A DNA stretch of 40,473 nt from a virus: IMG/VR virus record IMGVR_UViG_3300028025_003050, positions 1 to 40,473 of that record. One strand, written 5' to 3'. The notes beneath the pieces were generated by a model. That model was not told where the DNA came from, made no database searches, and worked only from the letters and a program-made list of their open reading frames with translations. Each line of letters begins with the position of its first letter. The stretch's first letter is position 1. The position numbers and the translations under genes were made by a program. This document shows positions 2,787-19,716 of this stretch, piece after piece.

Positions 2787-3028
2787 TGGGAGAAGTGATT
2801 AGCTTTCACCCGCCTAAGTCCGATCTTATTTTGCTCTATGAAGTGGTGGACGAGAGCGGTAACGCAGAATGGGGTGGTAATAATGAGAGGGAAGCTCTCG
2901 CGTGGATAGCAAGTTCACCCACCGCTGCACGCATACTTGTATCGGGGTGGGAGAGCGACGACGACGACGCTCATCTAGTAGGCCAACCCTTAGACATAAC
3001 AACTATGGTAAAGGCAGCTAGCCTATGA
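2786..3028 (+). CDS. Early acidic hypothetical protein (80 aa)
   Basis: 80 residues beginning at a TAATG junction. An internal acidic patch (ESDDDDAH near residue 57) and a helix (EREALAWIASSPTAARIL) are visible. No domain is recognised. The stop overlaps the next start (ATGA at 3025-3028). Confidence 0.55.
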   Translation: MGEVISFHPPKSDLILLYEVVDESGNAEWGGNNEREALAWIASSPTAARILVSGWESDDDDAHLVGQPLDITTMVKAASL

Positions 3029-3096
3029 GTTACTGGCTAGTAATAATCGCTATCCTACTGGTAGGCTACCTTATGATTGAAAGAGGACGAGAATGA
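3025..3096 (+). CDS. Tiny single-pass membrane peptide (23 aa)
   Basis: ATG in an ATGA overlap; 23 residues of which about 4-17 are hydrophobic (YWLVIIAILLVGYLM), followed by a charged tail. This is the form of a minimal membrane peptide. The ATGA at 3093-3096 also couples it to the next gene. Its role is unknown; it lies just upstream of the transglycosylase-like gene, so cooperation at the membrane is conceivable. Confidence 0.45.
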   Translation: MSYWLVIIAILLVGYLMIERGRE

Positions 3097-3380
3097 GTGA
3101 AAGAAGAATTGAAACTGCCAAGAATATGGCAGTGCGTCAACGTAATTATAGGAGAGCGAGAGATCGTGCTCTAGTCCGGTTGGCTAAAGCCTACCCTGAG
3201 CTGTATCGAGAATATCTATTGGAAGAGAAGGTGTCAGATGAGCGTATGGGTAAAAGCTGGATTGATATTACTGGTAGCACTGTTATTGGCGAGCTGGGTA
3301 CACGAGCCAACGGTGCCATTATTATCCCACCAACCCCGCATAACAGAGAGAACGAAGGCGACAATGGGGGAGAAGCGTGA
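3093..3380 (+). CDS. Basic early protein, N-terminal helical (95 aa)
   Basis: 95 residues starting in an ATGA overlap. The N-terminal half is strongly basic and helical (RQRNYRRARDRALVRLAKAY then PELYREYLLEEK), of a kind I recall from small actinobacteriophage proteins with no known function. The C-terminal half (residues about 50-95) is encoded by DNA that is also read in another frame as the signal/membrane segment of the transglycosylase-like gene starting at 3238. It ends in a GTGA overlap with the gene at 3377. Confidence 0.6.
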   Translation: MSERRIETAKNMAVRQRNYRRARDRALVRLAKAYPELYREYLLEEKVSDERMGKSWIDITGSTVIGELGTRANGAIIIPPTPHNRENEGDNGGEA

Positions 3381-3654
3381 GAATAAACGAATCGCAAGGG
3401 AATATAGTAAGGCTCTCGGATATTCGCCGAGAGAAGTCACGTGCCTTGTCACCTTATGGACCCGTGAGAGCAGGTTTGACCACCTTGCCAAGAACCAACG
3501 TGGAAGTTCAGCTTACGGAATTGCTCAACTCCTTAGAGAACGTAGTGGACGAGCTGAACTCCAAGTCCTACACGGTTTGCGCTACCTTAACCACCGCTAT
3601 TCAGGGAGTGCGTGTCGCGCTCTCCGACACCACGATAGACGAGGGTGGTACTGA
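3238..3654 (+). CDS. Exported lytic transglycosylase-like protein, overprinted
   Basis: 138 residues. Residues about 6-20 form a hydrophobic signal or anchor (AGLILLVALLLASW). Residues about 57-138 match the small actinobacterial SLT fold: a helix with C69, then LWTRESRF with the probable catalytic Glu77, GSSAYGIAQ at 89-97, a second Cys (C126), and the typical C-terminal GWY. It would cleave the MurNAc-GlcNAc bond of peptidoglycan outside the membrane. The ATG is preceded by GAGAAGG at good spacing; an alternative ATG at 3364 would drop the signal. Nearly all of its length overlaps two other ORFs in different frames (3093-3380 and 3377-3664). The GSSAYGIAQ-to-GWY spacing is shorter than in most relatives, so activity is not certain. 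Confidence 0.6.
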   Translation: MSVWVKAGLILLVALLLASWVHEPTVPLLSHQPRITERTKATMGEKRENKRIAREYSKALGYSPREVTCLVTLWTRESRFDHLAKNQRGSSAYGIAQLLRERSGRAELQVLHGLRYLNHRYSGSACRALRHHDRRGWY

Positions 3655-3664
3655 TACACTATAA
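3377..3664 (+). CDS. Early hypothetical protein overlapping transglycosylase gene (95 aa)
   Basis: GTG start in a GTGA overlap (3377-3380), the coupling signature used throughout this phage. The product has a basic N-terminus, a probable helix with heptad-like spacing (VQLTELLNSLENVVDELNSK at about residues 44-62) and an acidic end. No family is recognised. It is read in a different frame over almost the whole transglycosylase domain of the gene starting at 3238. Its composition looks protein-like rather than accidental, but one of the two frames could be a by-product. Confidence 0.5.
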   Translation: MRINESQGNIVRLSDIRREKSRALSPYGPVRAGLTTLPRTNVEVQLTELLNSLENVVDELNSKSYTVCATLTTAIQGVRVALSDTTIDEGGTDTL

Positions 3665-3695
3665 GTGTTCATTTCTTACCCTCTGCACGAACACT
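3664..3695 (+). terminator. Hairpin after early rightward block
   Basis: AGTGTTC at 3664-3670 pairs with GAACACT at 3689-3695, leaving an 18-nt pyrimidine-rich loop. It begins at the stop of the last rightward gene and abuts a stronger hairpin at 3694-3731, with which it shares two bases; the two may form alternative structures at the end of the rightward transcript. Confidence 0.35.
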
Positions 3696-3731
3696 AGCCC
3701 TCACCGTTAATCTCTTTCCGGTGGGGGTTAG
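3694..3731. terminator. Bidirectional hairpin between convergent operons
   Basis: CTAGCCCTCACCG (3694-3706) pairs with CGGTGGGGGTTAG (3719-3731): 13 pairs with two G-U wobbles around a 12-nt loop. It lies exactly between the rightward early block and the end of the long leftward operon and covers the stop codon of the FmdB-like gene (3728-3730). No long T-run follows on either strand, so termination may be factor-assisted. Position and stability make a terminator role likely. Confidence 0.5.
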
Positions 3732-3907
3732 TGCTTGTTGTCGGTAGTATAAAAGCCAGTCCCCTTAAAGGTGACAGCGGGCGAGGACCACTTGCGCTGG
3801 AAGGTGGTATCGCAGTTGGTGCAAATGTATGTCTCTTCCGGTGCATTGATACTGCGTTCAATGATTCGTACATCACCGCACCCTGGACACTCGTATTCAT
3901 ATGTCAT
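3728..3907 (-). CDS. FmdB-like zinc-ribbon protein (59 aa)
   Basis: 59 residues with the layout of the FmdB 'putative regulatory protein' family: N-terminal TYEYECPGCG, a second Cys pair (CTNC near residues 29-32), then the characteristic VTFKGTGFY end. These proteins bind zinc through the two Cys pairs; their role is poorly defined, and regulation of transcription was proposed from the original family member. It is the last gene of the leftward early operon, joined to the nuclease gene by an ATGA overlap at 3904-3907. Confidence 0.75.
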   Translation of the reverse strand: MTYEYECPGCGDVRIIERSINAPEETYICTNCDTTFQRKWSSPAVTFKGTGFYTTDNKH

Positions 3908-10072: not shown

Positions 10073-10170
10073 TTGCGATCATCCTTCCACTGTAGGAATG
10101 TATCGAAAGCATAAGCTCCAATGAATCCCATTACAAAACTAATACCTGCTACGAGAATTAACTCTTTCAT
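10063..10170 (-). CDS. Small single-pass membrane protein (35 aa)
   Basis: Begins in an ATGA overlap (10167-10170). Residues 4-22 are hydrophobic (LILVAGISFVMGFIGAYAF), followed by a charged tail (WKDDRKWR), so it is a small membrane-inserted peptide with the tail probably cytoplasmic. It sits between the HslV-like peptidase and the coiled-coil protein. No function can be deduced. Confidence 0.55.
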   Translation of the reverse strand: MKELILVAGISFVMGFIGAYAFDTFLQWKDDRKWR

Positions 10171-10727
10171 TTGTCATTCCTTGTCTGTGCTACTACCTGA
10201 ATTGGTGGGTGTGTATTGATATCCAGTAAGGATGAAATCCTGACTGCCTTCTCAGCTACCACACTTGCTGTTAGGACTTTATTGTAAGACTTAGGTTCCA
10301 AGGAATACAAGTACCCAAGGGCATAATTTCCACCGGAGCCTGCCGAGAATAGACCACGCTCAGATGTGTTAAACGATAGGTCACCGCCGATAGAAAACAT
10401 ATTGCCGTTGAAACCTAGCAAGAACGAGAAGTTCATCTCCTTGTTATCGACTTCGTAGTTACCCTCTTTGAACGCAGCTGAGATACTAGGCAGTATCCTG
10501 CTACCCATAAAGCGGGTTGGGTCTTCACCGCGATAAAGCGGTGGCTTCCACGCATAGGCAAGGATGTCACCTGGACGTGAGTCACCTGTCAGGCCGAGTA
10601 GATACTTACCCGTTGAGACTATCTTGGGTGTATCTACCGAGATAATGCGTTGATCACCGTCAGTGATTTGTGAATCGGCTGCCATTACCAAGAAGTCTGA
10701 GCCTTGGATACCCACGAGTGTTGTCAT
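10167..10727 (-). CDS. HslV/proteasome-beta-like Ntn peptidase
   Basis: 186 residues, close to HslV (about 175). It begins Met-Thr-Thr-Leu-Val-Gly; removal of Met1 would expose Thr2 as the N-terminal nucleophile without a propeptide. Further matches to the proteasome fold are AADS (Asp18), TPKIV (Lys35), LTGD where HslV has a Gly-rich loop, and SAGSGGNYALG (Ser131), which closely resembles HslV GSGGNYA. In the host such peptidases form barrels fed by an ATPase; no phage ATPase of that type is visible, so it may act alone, with a host unfoldase, or as an inhibitor. First gene of the leftward early operon; no ribosome site is evident, so leaderless translation is possible. Confidence 0.75.
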   Translation of the reverse strand: MTTLVGIQGSDFLVMAADSQITDGDQRIISVDTPKIVSTGKYLLGLTGDSRPGDILAYAWKPPLYRGEDPTRFMGSRILPSISAAFKEGNYEVDNKEMNFSFLLGFNGNMFSIGGDLSFNTSERGLFSAGSGGNYALGYLYSLEPKSYNKVLTASVVAEKAVRISSLLDINTHPPIQVVAQTRNDK

Positions 10728-11693: not shown

Positions 11694-11725
11694 CTTTACT
11701 TAAGGTTTCTTAGTCTTTACTTAAG
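11694..11725 (-). repeat. 11-bp direct repeat at endolysin/holin junction
   Basis: CTTTACTTAAG occurs at 11694-11704 and again at 11715-11725, ten bases apart; the second copy covers the endolysin stop codon and the first lies over the ribosome site of the 63-aa membrane protein. It may reflect a small duplication that created the holin-like gene's ribosome site. Confidence 0.5.
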
Positions 11726-12230
11726 ACTTGAAGACTGGCTTACCAAAGCCAACGATGGACACAGCCTGTGACCTACGTAGTTTGGAGCCATTCTTCTTTT
11801 TGTATGCACGAACCTTGCGGCAAACTTCTCCGCCGTTTCGCTGGTCACCCTTCTTATCTGGGGCAGTGTTGCCTTCGATACAGGTAACTGTGCCATCGCC
11901 GTTATCCTTAACGACAATGCCAACGTGAGAGATACGGTCTACGCCGTCTCCTGGGAAATCAAAGAACACGATATCCCCTGGTAGTGGAACTGCTTCCTCT
12001 GCCTTTTCCCATTGACCCTTCTTAATGAAGGCTCCTGCTCCTGCTGGTGTGTATACACAACTAGGAATCTTGAGGCCTACCTCGTTAGCGCACCAGTTAA
12101 CAAATGATCCGCACCAAGGTTGGAAGTTAGCTTTGGTAAATGCACCGTACTTGGTTTCATTATCCTTTGGTCCCTCGATAACTCCGAGTTCACCCTTTGC
12201 TACTGCAATGAAGTCTGCTCTCTGTCCCAT
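11721..12230 (-). CDS. CHAP-domain endolysin
   Basis: 169 residues. The CHAP triad is visible: Cys40 in PWCGSFVNWC, His102 in RISHVGIVV and Glu119 in CIEGNT. CHAP enzymes cut peptide cross-links or amide bonds of peptidoglycan. The N-terminal ADFIAVAKGELGVIEG is the usual start of these phage lysins, and the C-terminal 30 residues are basic without a clear wall-binding domain. There is no signal peptide, so export depends on a holin. It is flanked on both sides by membrane-protein genes, forming a classic lysis cassette. Confidence 0.85.
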   Translation of the reverse strand: MGQRADFIAVAKGELGVIEGPKDNETKYGAFTKANFQPWCGSFVNWCANEVGLKIPSCVYTPAGAGAFIKKGQWEKAEEAVPLPGDIVFFDFPGDGVDRISHVGIVVKDNGDGTVTCIEGNTAPDKKGDQRNGGEVCRKVRAYKKKNGSKLRRSQAVSIVGFGKPVFKS

Positions 12231-12647: not shown

Positions 12648-13811
12648 TTACTTCCTTCTATAAGCAGCGCCTGCAGCAGCAGTTGCTGCAGCACTGGTGG
12701 CTATGTTTCCTACAATTACTGATGCAACGATTACCTCTTCAGCTCGCTCACGAACTTCAGGTGGTAGGTCTGCACCTACACTGCCAAGTGCAGCGAAGGC
12801 TGCTGCTGGATCTGTGAAAAGTTCACCTAGTAGGGCAGCAGGGTCTTGTAGTAAAGCGACAGCTATTGCAACTTCTGCTGTTACTACCACTCCGTTATCT
12901 AGTGTTACCGGTGTGCTAGGTGGTAGACTTTCCAAACTAACATCATTAACACTTGGAGGTTCCGGTGCAATATCAGGTTGAGGCTCTGGCTCAGGTTCTG
13001 CGACTGGCTCAGGCAAAGGCTCAGGAGCTGGTGCAGGTGGCTCAGGCTCCACTGGGGGTGCAGGCGGCTCTTCTTCAGGAGCAGGTGCAGGCGGTTCTTC
13101 GACAGGCGGTTGCTCTTCAACAACTGGCGGCTCTTCCGCAGGTGCCGGTGGTTCCGGTGCTGGTTCAGGCTGAGGCTCAGGTTGAGGTGCTGGAGCCGGA
13201 ACAGGTGCAGGTGTTGGTTCAGGTTCAACTACCGGAGGCGGAGCAGGCACGCTAGGTGCTGGCTCAACAGGAGGTGGGGGATTTGATGTGGCTGTACTTG
13301 TGTCTACTACTGTCGGTGTCTCAGACACTGGTGTGGATGTATCTGTATTACCGGAAGCCGTCTGAGTCTCAGTACTGGAAGTCGCAGTATCAACAGGCTC
13401 GACAGGATCTGGAACAACTACGGTCTGAGTATCTTCAGTCACAGGAGTTGCAGTCTCAGTTGGACTTGGCGAAGGCGAAGGCTCTGGAGTGGGACTTACA
13501 GTAGGCTCTGGTTCTGGTGTAGGTACTACTCCGCTATAGTAACCCAAAGAAATATTGCTAAGATCATCACTGATATAAACAACGTATGGGTTTGCATATC
13601 CACCTTCACAGTAGAGTCTAGGGATGTATCCCTTGTCAGCAAAGAACTGCTGACTATTATCCCATCCAATTTGGAATGAGCGTTGCTCGCCACCTTGAGT
13701 AGCACATATAACAGTAGCGTTACCGTATGCTGCTTGTGCTGATGGACTCCAAAAGAATGAAGTACCTAGGACGATAAAGAATACTGCGTACTTACTTGCC
13801 CTTACTCTCAC
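12648..13811 (-). CDS. Secreted Pro/Glu-rich wall-spanning-type protein
   Basis: About 387 residues from the GTG at 13811; a TTG at 13847 would add 12. The N-terminus (RVRASKYAVFFIVLGTSF... ending SAQA|AYG) is a clear Sec signal peptide. A small Cys-containing domain follows (to about residue 95), then over 200 residues of Pro/Glu/Thr/Ala repeats (PEPEPTVSPTPEPSPSPSP and PAPAPQPEPQPEPAP-like), and a C-terminal Ala-rich helical domain (DPAALLGELFTDPAAAFAAL...PPEVRERAEEV) ending in a hydrophobic segment with a basic tail. Extended Pro-rich proteins can span the cell wall. Its place in the lysis cassette suggests a role in envelope disruption, but it could be a virion or surface protein. Confidence 0.65.
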   Translation of the reverse strand: MRVRASKYAVFFIVLGTSFFWSPSAQAAYGNATVICATQGGEQRSFQIGWDNSQQFFADKGYIPRLYCEGGYANPYVVYISDDLSNISLGYYSGVVPTPEPEPTVSPTPEPSPSPSPTETATPVTEDTQTVVVPDPVEPVDTATSSTETQTASGNTDTSTPVSETPTVVDTSTATSNPPPPVEPAPSVPAPPPVVEPEPTPAPVPAPAPQPEPQPEPAPEPPAPAEEPPVVEEQPPVEEPPAPAPEEEPPAPPVEPEPPAPAPEPLPEPVAEPEPEPQPDIAPEPPSVNDVSLESLPPSTPVTLDNGVVVTAEVAIAVALLQDPAALLGELFTDPAAAFAALGSVGADLPPEVRERAEEVIVASVIVGNIATSAAATAAAGAAYRRK

Positions 13812-14016
13812 AGAGGATAAGGTAAATCTGGTCAACGCGTTGTTCAACTCTGTCCAATCTTTCGCTGTTGATGTTAACTGCGTCCCTCATTGAACCGCCA
13901 CCATTCGGCTTAAGTTCTTCTAGGTAGTGTTTGACTAGCCATTTAATAGCTGCAATAAATGCGCCAATGATTGTTAGTATCGCAACTGCTATCGTTGCGT
14001 AGTCTTGTGGCTGCAT
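13792..14016 (-). CDS. Membrane-anchored coiled-coil protein of lysis cassette (74 aa)
   Basis: 74 residues. One N-terminal membrane segment (about 8-26), then KWLVKHYLEELKPNGGGSMRD and a coiled coil (ERLDRVEQRVDQIYLIL). The 'LKPNGG.S.RD' linker is one I recall from small actinobacteriophage proteins beside lysins, and the layout resembles XhlA-type holin partners. It overlaps the start region of the Pro-rich gene by 20 to 56 bases depending on its start. Confidence 0.6.
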   Translation of the reverse strand: MQPQDYATIAVAILTIIGAFIAAIKWLVKHYLEELKPNGGGSMRDAVNINSERLDRVEQRVDQIYLILCESKGK

Positions 14017-16486: not shown

Positions 16487-17881
16487 TTAAGCCATTGCGT
16501 AACGAATAATAACAATACCTGAACCGCCAGCGCCGGATGTACCAAAGCCACCTTCGACACCGCCACCACCACCACCAGTGTTAATTGTTGCTGGTGTAGC
16601 TGTGAAGCCTGTACTTGCAGAGCTTCCTGCTCCACCACCACCGGAGCCACCTGTGCTTGAGCCACCAGTTCCACCTTGTGCACCACCACCACCGCCACCG
16701 GCTATGTAGTAGGTACCGGAAACATTCTGACCAGCATTAGTTGCAGACAACCAAGAACTAAAAGCACTTGTTCCAACACCGCCATTATTCCAAGCGTTGT
16801 TACCTGTTCCTGCTGCACCGGCACCACCGCCTGATGCTCCGTAAACTGTTGTTGTTGCAGCAGCAGAGTTACCACCAGCAAAACCGTATGCTGTTTCTCC
16901 TGCACCCGCAGTTTGATTAGATGCACCACCTGAAGCTGTACCTGAATCTATTGCGCGAGAACCGCCACCTGATCCACCAGTTTTTCCTGGTATTCCACCG
17001 TTGTTAGACCAGCCACCGCCACCACCGCCACCTTTGGCGGTTAGTGATATTCCAGAACCAGTAATGGTTGTATCTGTTCCAGTATTTCCAGCACTATCTG
17101 ATGATATAGCAGCGCCACCAGCGCCGATAGTTACTGTGTATGAACTTGCTGTTACTGAAGCAGATGGCTTGTATAGAACTCCACCAGCACCTGCACCACC
17201 ACCACGTCCAACACCGCCTGAGCCACCACCTGCGACAGTTAAAATGTCACAGGATAAAGTTACTTGTGGAACAAATGTATCTGTAGTGCGGAATACGTGG
17301 TACCAGTAAGTGTTGTCTGTGTAGATAGAACCGCCTACTGCCTTTGGAGCAATAGTAGGTTCAGTGCCTACTGCTGCTAGGCCATATAGCGAGAAGGTGC
17401 TGTTGGCAAGGATGTTTGAACTTGTAAATGAAGATAAAGTAATAGATGTAATTGCTGCAGTATTAGACCACAAACCAGCAACCATATCTTGATAACCAGT
17501 TGTCGCATTGTTTTCTGAAACGGAGTCTCCAGATGCAGATTTATAGTTAGCACTTGTATAATTTGGAATGTAAATTTCACCATTGCTAAATGTGTTTGCA
17601 GTAGCAGTTGCTCCTGGAACCCAAGAAAGTTCTTGTTCAGTTGCTGAACTATAAGATGCTGCCGAAGAACCGTTGCCATAAATTGCACGCTGACTGTATC
17701 CAGTAGAACTTCCATTGTATTTAACAATAAGGGTATCTACAGGCTGACCGCTTCTATCAGTTCTTGCAGAGATGACAATCTTCAAATCGGTATAGCCCGA
17801 TTGTGGGATGTTGGAGAATGTGACGCTTGCTGTTGCAGCGTTGAGTTCGATGCGCTCGAGCAAAACATAGTTGCTTGGCAT
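16487..17881 (-). CDS. Gly-rich tail fibre protein A
   Basis: 464 residues. Residues about 1-170 are a beta-rich domain (SVTFSNIPQSGYTDLKIVI; NGSSTGYSQRAIYGNGSSA; AAITSITLSSF; STFSLYGLA), repeated in the two fibre genes upstream. A short TYWYHVF...F linker follows, then about 260 residues dominated by Gly with Ala/Ser, ending GGAGGSGIVIIRYAMA. Gly-rich tips of this type are found in tail fibres of marine phages, where the Gly loops can contact receptors. It is probably a receptor-binding fibre. Confidence 0.7.
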   Translation of the reverse strand: MPSNYVLLERIELNAATASVTFSNIPQSGYTDLKIVISARTDRSGQPVDTLIVKYNGSSTGYSQRAIYGNGSSAASYSSATEQELSWVPGATATANTFSNGEIYIPNYTSANYKSASGDSVSENNATTGYQDMVAGLWSNTAAITSITLSSFTSSNILANSTFSLYGLAAVGTEPTIAPKAVGGSIYTDNTYWYHVFRTTDTFVPQVTLSCDILTVAGGGSGGVGRGGGAGAGGVLYKPSASVTASSYTVTIGAGGAAISSDSAGNTGTDTTITGSGISLTAKGGGGGGGWSNNGGIPGKTGGSGGGSRAIDSGTASGGASNQTAGAGETAYGFAGGNSAAATTTVYGASGGGAGAAGTGNNAWNNGGVGTSAFSSWLSATNAGQNVSGTYYIAGGGGGGAQGGTGGSSTGGSGGGGAGSSASTGFTATPATINTGGGGGGVEGGFGTSGAGGSGIVIIRYAMA

Positions 17882-18429
17882 TACTTACCCACCTTTACTA
17901 ACAACTCAGGAGCGTACAGCTCTAGGATTTCTATTGCGTATTTCACTTTATCCTCTGCTCTCTGACCTGATGGTTGTGAAGTATTCCACAACTCTAAGTT
18001 CTCAATACGGTTATCTTTCTTGTCACCGTTAATATGGTGGATGTTCTCGCCCTTAACTAAGGGTCTGCCAAGATGCTCAAACATTACTAGGCGATGTTCT
18101 GCCACTAGCCCACCCTTACGTGCTATTGGATGTCCTGGTAAATGCAATGTTACGTACCCACCAATTTCAAATCCATCTAAACGAATTCTACTTTTAAGAG
18201 GATCACCGTATATCCAATTAGCTTGGTAGTGCTTACCGCACATACCCTTAGCAAGGTGCTTGTTAGTACAATCATCTACTTCACATAAGCGAGTAGCAGG
18301 TCTGCCTTTATTAAGGTCACCGTGTACATTAAGCCTGCGCTTGTGCATAGGACATAGCCCGTGAGTTCTACCGGAGATAGTTTTACCGCAGTCTTCAACT
18401 GAACAAATTTCAGCGTAGTTAGCTGCCAT
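17881..18429 (-). CDS. HNH homing endonuclease inserted in fibre locus
   Basis: 182 residues. The N-terminal part has two CxxC-type zinc knuckles (CSVEDCGKTI and CEVDDCTNKH, each followed by C.MH or CGKHY). The HNH core is VAEHRLVMFEHLGRPL, then ENIHHINGDKKDNRIENLEL. This is the typical free-standing homing nuclease of phages. It lies between two paralogous fibre genes and is unrelated to them; the upstream fibre gene stops 12 bases earlier. Its presence probably reflects a mobile gene invasion. Confidence 0.85.
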   Translation of the reverse strand: MAANYAEICSVEDCGKTISGRTHGLCPMHKRRLNVHGDLNKGRPATRLCEVDDCTNKHLAKGMCGKHYQANWIYGDPLKSRIRLDGFEIGGYVTLHLPGHPIARKGGLVAEHRLVMFEHLGRPLVKGENIHHINGDKKDNRIENLELWNTSQPSGQRAEDKVKYAIEILELYAPELLVKVGK

Positions 18430-18441
18430 TATCTATTCTCC

Positions 18442-19716
18442 CTATTTCGCATATCGAATGATGACAATACCTGAACCACCGTTGCCGCCAGCATTAACAC
18501 CGCCACCACCGCCACCACCTAGGTTAGTTGTTCCATTAACTCCATCACCAGTGCTAACACCGGCACCACCACCACCTGCGCCACCTGCTGCTGGTGTAGC
18601 TCCAAAGTTTCCACCACCGCCGCCGCCACCGGCGTATGTAACAGATGTTCCTGACAAAGAACTTGCTGTTCCAGCGCCACCGACACCACAATTAGTAGTA
18701 GTGCCTGTGCCACCTACAGCGCCAGCACCGCCGCCGCCACCAGTACCAAGATTGTTTGATGTGGTTGATCCACCACCGTTATTGCCTTGTGATGGAGATG
18801 TAGAAGGTGTATTTCCTGAACCTACGGTTCGATTGTAGTTACCACCACCACCTGATCCACCATTATTTGCATCTACGCCACCGGAAGCAAAAACACCGCT
18901 TGCTGCGCCGCCACCTGTAGAAGTAAAGGAATTAAATACAGAGTCGCTTCCATTAGTGCCTTTAGATGAAGCAACACCTGATCCACCAGCGCCAACAAGA
19001 ACTTGATATATTCCTGCTGCAATGCTTTGTGCAGTTGCCGTTCTAAATCCACCAGCACCGCCACCGGCTCCACCACTACCGCCACCGGCTCCACCGCCAG
19101 CAACTACTAGATAATCACAAGAAAGTGTTTGGTTAGGTACAAAGTTGCCTGACATTGTAAATGCGTGATACCAATAAGTTGCATCGGATGTGACAGTTCC
19201 ACCAGTTGCTTTAGGTGTCGCATCACCAGCATTTGAGACACCGTATAACGAAAATGTTGATCCTGCGGGAATATCTCCACCATCACCAGTAATTGTGATG
19301 ATATTGATTGCAGCAGTAGAACGCCACTGACTAACAAGAGCTACGCTATAAACACTTGCATCACTGTATCTAGTTAAAAATATTTTGTTTGTAGTGGTGT
19401 TTGAATAGTTACTAAATTGAGTGATTGTCTGATAAACACCGCCACCGCCGGTTGTCAAAGACATATAAGCCTTATTTTCGTTGGATGCTCTGCCCGATGT
19501 TGCGCTAGAACCATCGCCTATGAGTTGAGTTCTTGAGTAGTTTGATCCTGAATCTACTGAGGAATTTCCTACTCGATAAAATAAAGACCTAGTATTTGTA
19601 GAATTTGCTACTATAACCAAATCAGTATAAACCTGACTGATACCACTAAAAGTAATTGAAGGAGTAGCAGTTGCTACTGTTACCTTATCAAGTGCCACAT
19701 AAGTATTAGTTGCCAT
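18442..19716 (-). CDS. Gly-rich tail fibre protein B
   Basis: 424 residues, a paralogue of the fibre at 16487-17881. The N-terminal domain (ATPSITFSGISQVYTDLVIV; SNYSRTQLIGDGSSA; STAAINIITITGDG; STFSLYGVS) is followed by TYWYHAFTMSGNFVPNQTL and a long Gly-rich region ending GGSGIVIIRYAK. The shared domain order and end motif indicate duplication; the Gly-rich halves differ in detail, as expected for receptor-binding tips under selection. Confidence 0.7.
   Translation of the reverse strand: MATNTYVALDKVTVATATPSITFSGISQVYTDLVIVANSTNTRSLFYRVGNSSVDSGSNYSRTQLIGDGSSATSGRASNENKAYMSLTTGGGGVYQTITQFSNYSNTTTNKIFLTRYSDASVYSVALVSQWRSTAAINIITITGDGGDIPAGSTFSLYGVSNAGDATPKATGGTVTSDATYWYHAFTMSGNFVPNQTLSCDYLVVAGGGAGGGSGGAGGGAGGFRTATAQSIAAGIYQVLVGAGGSGVASSKGTNGSDSVFNSFTSTGGGAASGVFASGGVDANNGGSGGGGNYNRTVGSGNTPSTSPSQGNNGGGSTTSNNLGTGGGGGAGAVGGTGTTTNCGVGGAGTASSLSGTSVTYAGGGGGGGNFGATPAAGGAGGGGAGVSTGDGVNGTTNLGGGGGGGVNAGGNGGSGIVIIRYAK

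Follow-up and report, generated by a model that had tools for sequence, protein, structure and literature searches.

The question raised by this locus is whether three overlapping reading frames in a viral DNA window (the whole stretch analysed, 40,473 nucleotides) all encode selected proteins and, if so, which of them came first. U (3093..3380, + strand) encodes a 95-aa protein whose N-half (NYRRARDRAL...) is conserved and single-coded and whose C-terminal 47 codons overlap SLT. SLT (3238..3654, +) encodes a 138-aa transglycosylase-like protein; it starts 145 bases inside U and stops 10 bases before the D stop. D (3377..3664, +) encodes a 95-aa orphan, read in the +1 frame of SLT from a GTG start. 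U, SLT and D occupy three different frames of the + strand. Because 143 nt are shared between U and SLT and 278 nt between SLT and D, SLT is left without any singly coded base. The U stop and the D start meet in the sequence GTGA (3377-3380), and these four bases belong to U, SLT and D alike. Frames, coordinates, overlaps and junction are exactly as given in the original prediction. The SD-like site that it assigned to SLT, GAGAAGG, is also present (3225..3231, +), written within U codons (LLEEKV), and a GGAGA(A/G)GG-like stretch lies upstream of most SLT starts in the family. The SD-like site of D, GGGGGAG (3366..3372, +), falls within SLT codons 43-45; it reads as Met-Gly-Glu in the SLT of the window, and Met-Glu-Glu is frequent across the clade.

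SLT had been described as encoding a membrane-anchored, transglycosylase-like protein within two other genes, and both its homologues and its match to NCBIfam NF052397 (aggregation-promoting factor C-terminal-like domain; 47.1 bits, cut-off 40) support this description. Residues 67-138 cover the entire model. SLT also matches PHROG 15428, 12661 and 35836, families labelled transglycosylase, and when compared by profile with the Endor1 lytic transglycosylase (a Streptomyces phage protein) it reached a probability of 99%. Scores were below the Pfam gathering cut-offs for PF01464 (SLT; 17.2 of 21.3 bits) and PF18013 (phage tail lysozyme; 23.1 of 28.2), and the DNA of the region found no match when searched against phage records. 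All motifs previously pointed out in the ORF (TRES, GSSAYGIAQ, a Cys pair and a final GWY) are present. The N-terminal membrane segment corresponds to residues 3-21, a hydrophobic stretch that scores 2.24 by Kyte-Doolittle; a misassigned SLT start in L040, L041, L042, L053 and L063 lowers the membrane score of these loci and affects nothing else. In the predicted structure, a helix at the N-terminus (3-19) is followed by a helical domain with a loose active-site loop. The SLT product is probably a small protein tethered to the membrane through its N-terminus, with a predicted transglycosylase-like domain outside the cell membrane that would cut or remodel peptidoglycan. Its role may be to weaken or reshape the wall while infection proceeds, or to help with lysis.

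A scan of viral contigs yielded 170 SLT relatives. Stops in the SLT frame and loss of the putative catalytic Glu were sought among them and neither was found: all 72 distinct homologues are intact and carry Glu77 (codon 3466-3468, + strand). Ser78, Asp81, His82, Ser90, Gly94, Gln97, Cys69 and Cys126 are likewise invariant in 72 of 72, as are Ala92, Gly94, Ile95 and Gln97 of the A-[YF]-G-I-x-Q motif. The overlap-aware rate dNN/dSN was 0.31 (0.22-0.42), and on this comparative evidence SLT is under strong purifying selection in the 72 distinct homologues. The same protein, even if both SLT and D are genes, could be inactive and serve as a membrane-tethered peptidoglycan-binding or exclusion protein. 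Its domain is very short (~95 aa), the modelled active-site loop is loose, a PDB fold search against solved structures gave no usable match and no lysozyme fold, and one relative (L286) has TREA in place of TRES, though the Glu is retained. The invariance of Glu77, Ser90, Gly94, Gln97 and both cysteines argues against a loss of activity, and so does the resemblance of the model to LT_GEWL/SLT entries in a viral fold library; we therefore consider an inactive SLT unlikely.

Frame-wise alignment and silent-site comparison across the relatives indicated that SLT and D are both constrained, and the U tail weakly. Among the clade's 65 distinct SLT sequences, all 65 have a D frame free of stops; as the loci are related, these are not 65 independent trials. 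When SLT codons were shuffled or resampled from three codon pools, the frame stayed open in only 2-4% of trials (P(open) 0.02-0.04 per sequence). Codon resampling predicted about 3 stops per sequence, and 3-12 occur in the third frame. An artefact of codon use could thereby be ruled out as the reason for the open frame. In the sister clade that lacks D, the same frame is interrupted in all 44 sequences, by 1-7 stops and in nearly all by 3-5. The D start (GTG or ATG) is found at a nearly constant place although the underlying codons differ, and the D stop falls within a few codons of the SLT end.

The silent sites of SLT were then compared between clades. At 70-80% SLT-domain protein identity, fourfold-site identity of SLT was 0.752 in the D clade versus 0.486 in the D-less clade, and fourfold agreement in the N part of SLT was 0.44 versus 0.35. 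Within the same phages, fourfold agreement reached 0.75 for SLT under D versus 0.425 for the singly coded half of U. For D itself the overlap-aware rate dNN/dNS was 0.66 (0.50-0.88), with 1.45 in the control frame; the effect is significant but modest, and the interval comes from a bootstrap over columns in which shared ancestry remains. RNA folding of the D/SLT region was ordinary (z -1.3), which rules out an RNA-structure signal as the source of the constraint. These data bear directly on the possibility that D is not a gene at all, its frame being open through the SLT protein, through codon use, or because of RNA structure or another signal at silent sites. Such a reading is consistent with three observations: no homologue of D is known, the codon usage of D does not surpass that of the third frame, and the structural model of D is mostly of low confidence, one helix excepted. 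It does not account for the rarity of open frames on resampling, the stops at this place in every D-less sister sequence, the strongly held silent sites beneath D combined with ordinary RNA folding, or the conservation of the D start, stop and SD-like site, and we judge it very improbable. By comparative evidence D is a selected gene, and the comparison shows SLT and D to be two selected coding sequences from one stretch.

The predicted D structure has a disordered N part followed by one long confident helix (39-86), and would fit a coiled-coil oligomer. No D homologue was found in phage records or genome contigs, and PDB and PHROGs gave no convincing match. D apart from SLT was also sought among the loci without success, as all eight candidate loci carry SLT. 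The idea of an old gene present elsewhere was dropped, since matches did not extend beyond SLT loci. The D loci number more than 500. L143 had appeared to be D-less owing to a frame error at the contig end. In L210 and L214 the +1 frame is open over the domain, but both score only weakly for D and were left out of the D count. The open frame of L082 probably reflects high G+C. The best explanation, in which as a whole we have considerable confidence, is that D is a separate protein kept by selection, soluble and mostly helical according to its model.

The original prediction held that the transglycosylase-like gene arose inside early genes, in parallel with the embedded lysis genes of small phages. 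The polarity turned out to be the reverse. SLT genes without D form one branch (34 rows, support 98/91) that includes the isolated Planktophila phage F5, in which SLT overlaps a preceding whiB-type gene by 4 bp and, just as in the window, terminase and SLT are transcribed divergently. L209, L211 and L215, which are more distant SLTs, lack D too. Codon usage is nearer to that of the genome in SLT than in D at 74 of 74 loci. Because D-less SLT relatives exist and SLT codon usage is more native, SLT appears to be old and D overprinted later; the comparison thus shows D to be younger than SLT. The parallel with embedded lysis genes is inverted as well, because the enzyme is the host gene and not the guest. 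In the window SLT is wholly contained in U plus D, as would be expected had it been overprinted inside these two as older early genes. Phages that carry SLT behind other genes and lack D (F5, with whiB upstream, is one), the wide distribution of the SLT domain family and the less native codon usage of D make that order of events extremely unlikely. D-less relatives commonly read ATG GAA GAG AAG AAA GCC, and the common motif of the D clade, ATG GAG GAG AAG CGT GAG, includes both an SD-like stretch and a GTG. A single gain of D is the simplest account. The tree is compatible with more than one root among the D clade, L067-L072 and L076, and hence also with a single gain that was later lost in the F5 clade.

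The U tail behaves differently from SLT and D. Over SLT it is open in 55 of 56 sequences (P = 0.19 each), its residues agree in 28% of comparisons, and its overlap-aware rate of 0.82 does not depart significantly from 1. In the main clade its stop falls on the D start, and in loci of the L067-L072 type it stops about 22 codons into SLT. It has the look of a bridge that brings ribosomes to D and places little demand on its own sequence. Among 80 U loci scanned, SLT and then D follow U wherever downstream sequence is present; a U without SLT or D was sought in the same set and none was seen where such sequence exists, the L268 contig stopping short of the SLT/D region. As shown by comparison of these loci, U, SLT and D travel together and the three-gene order is conserved. 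L067-L072, L232 and L251 make up a separate D-bearing lineage in which D is uncoupled from the U stop because U ends early inside SLT. It provides a ready-made contrast for judging the proposed coupling.

Together, these results make it highly probable that the locus is a nested U-SLT-D cassette in which SLT is ancestral, D was overprinted later and U supplies ribosomes. The cassette would lie at the end of a + operon of a tailed phage, probably one of freshwater actinobacteria; this host is suggested by the terminase large subunit of the window, which is 47% identical to that of the Planktophila F5/E7 phages. D would have been born in the +1 frame of SLT, with a Glu-rich SLT stretch used as ribosome-binding site and a start codon formed by neighbouring SLT codons. 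The U tail would read through the SLT start and stop on the D start, allowing termination-reinitiation, and SLT would be translated from its own site within U. The SLT domain would be exported with its Cys pair outside, and peptidoglycan would be cut there. Within the + operon the cassette neighbours a RusA-like gene and is followed by a strong terminator, a placement that suggests a non-structural, possibly early set. A very stable hairpin at 3691..3735, located 3' of D between convergent gene sets (folding z-score -5.0 for 3640-3760), contains a terminator-like site at 3705-3733 and is likely a bidirectional terminator that closes the + operon downstream of D.

U is itself preceded by T (3025..3096, +), a 23-aa single-membrane-span micro-ORF (MSYWLVIIAILLVGYLMIERGRE) that is coupled via ATGA both to U and to its other neighbour, and that was missed by ORF lists because it is small. 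Most of 48 distinct loci have a similar hydrophobic peptide of 22-29 aa in the position before U, though none of L067-L072 does, and pN/pS is 0.48 for T (13 copies of 23 aa). T is possibly an unannotated membrane peptide gene. A conserved single-span micro-ORF two genes ahead of a membrane-anchored muralytic-type protein could point to a second lysis module, with T as a holin-like peptide, SLT as an endolysin of the signal-arrest type and D as a brake. We regard such a module as improbable, given that L067-L072 keep SLT and D without T and that the obvious endolysin is a CHAP enzyme encoded elsewhere (11721-12230, -). The distance between SLT and this CHAP gene had been predicted correctly, and the CHAP enzyme is likelier than SLT to be the main endolysin. 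A 74-aa ORF weakly like PspB lies nearby (13792-14016, -), and the two are likely the main lysis region. Other features of the window include a gene at 10167-10727 (-) that matches a proteasome subunit family and the HslV-type PHROG 1040. At 16487-19716 (-), two genes matching PHROG 2295 flank an HNH endonuclease gene (17881-18429), which suggests duplication or homing within the structural region.

Overprinting and nested genes are known in phages, and the lambda Rz/Rz1 spanins are an envelope-related gene pair that shares DNA in two frames of one strand. The U-SLT-D cassette resembles Rz/Rz1 in being made of frame-sharing, envelope-related genes. It differs in three ways: an enzyme gene is the host, its guest D encodes a predicted soluble helical orphan, and what D leaves of the host gene is covered by a second gene. 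In leviviruses, de novo lysis genes are overprinted within old genes (PMC7693330); there the guest is the lysis gene, whereas here the envelope enzyme is the host and D the guest. The closest relatives described are those of Planktophila phages LanE43AprF5/E7 (OX376641, OX376640), which carry a homologous membrane-anchored SLT (45% identity) divergent from the terminase gene; unlike the SLT of the window, it is preceded by a whiB-type gene and lacks D, and the corresponding frame is full of stops. The Streptomyces Camvirus phages (Endor1, phiCAM, Joe) have the same lytic transglycosylase domain, likewise among small non-structural genes, but with a longer linker and no overlap by other annotated genes. 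NF052397, as a domain model, is silent on overprinting. A description of a U-SLT-D cassette was not found in the available portions of the open-licence literature, PMC10202952, PMC6139136 and PMC5295617 included. Overprinting as such is familiar, but for tailed phages a nest as completely double-coded as this one is out of the ordinary.

That D is a de novo protein controlling SLT, for instance as a cytoplasmic partner or brake, or controlling the T-U-SLT set, is a speculative proposal to which we assign little likelihood. If true, nesting would enforce co-inheritance and a fixed dose of enzyme and regulator, and such a pairing would occur in phages of abundant freshwater bacteria. At the level of the cassette itself, these comparisons indicate that an enzyme gene can survive even when each of its bases also codes for something else, and that gene callers working in a single frame necessarily misannotate one of the two selected genes here. 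A long out-of-frame overlap kept in hundreds of tailed phages, together with D-less sisters and a D-less isolate, allows direct tests of how a gene can be born from the coding sequence of an enzyme.
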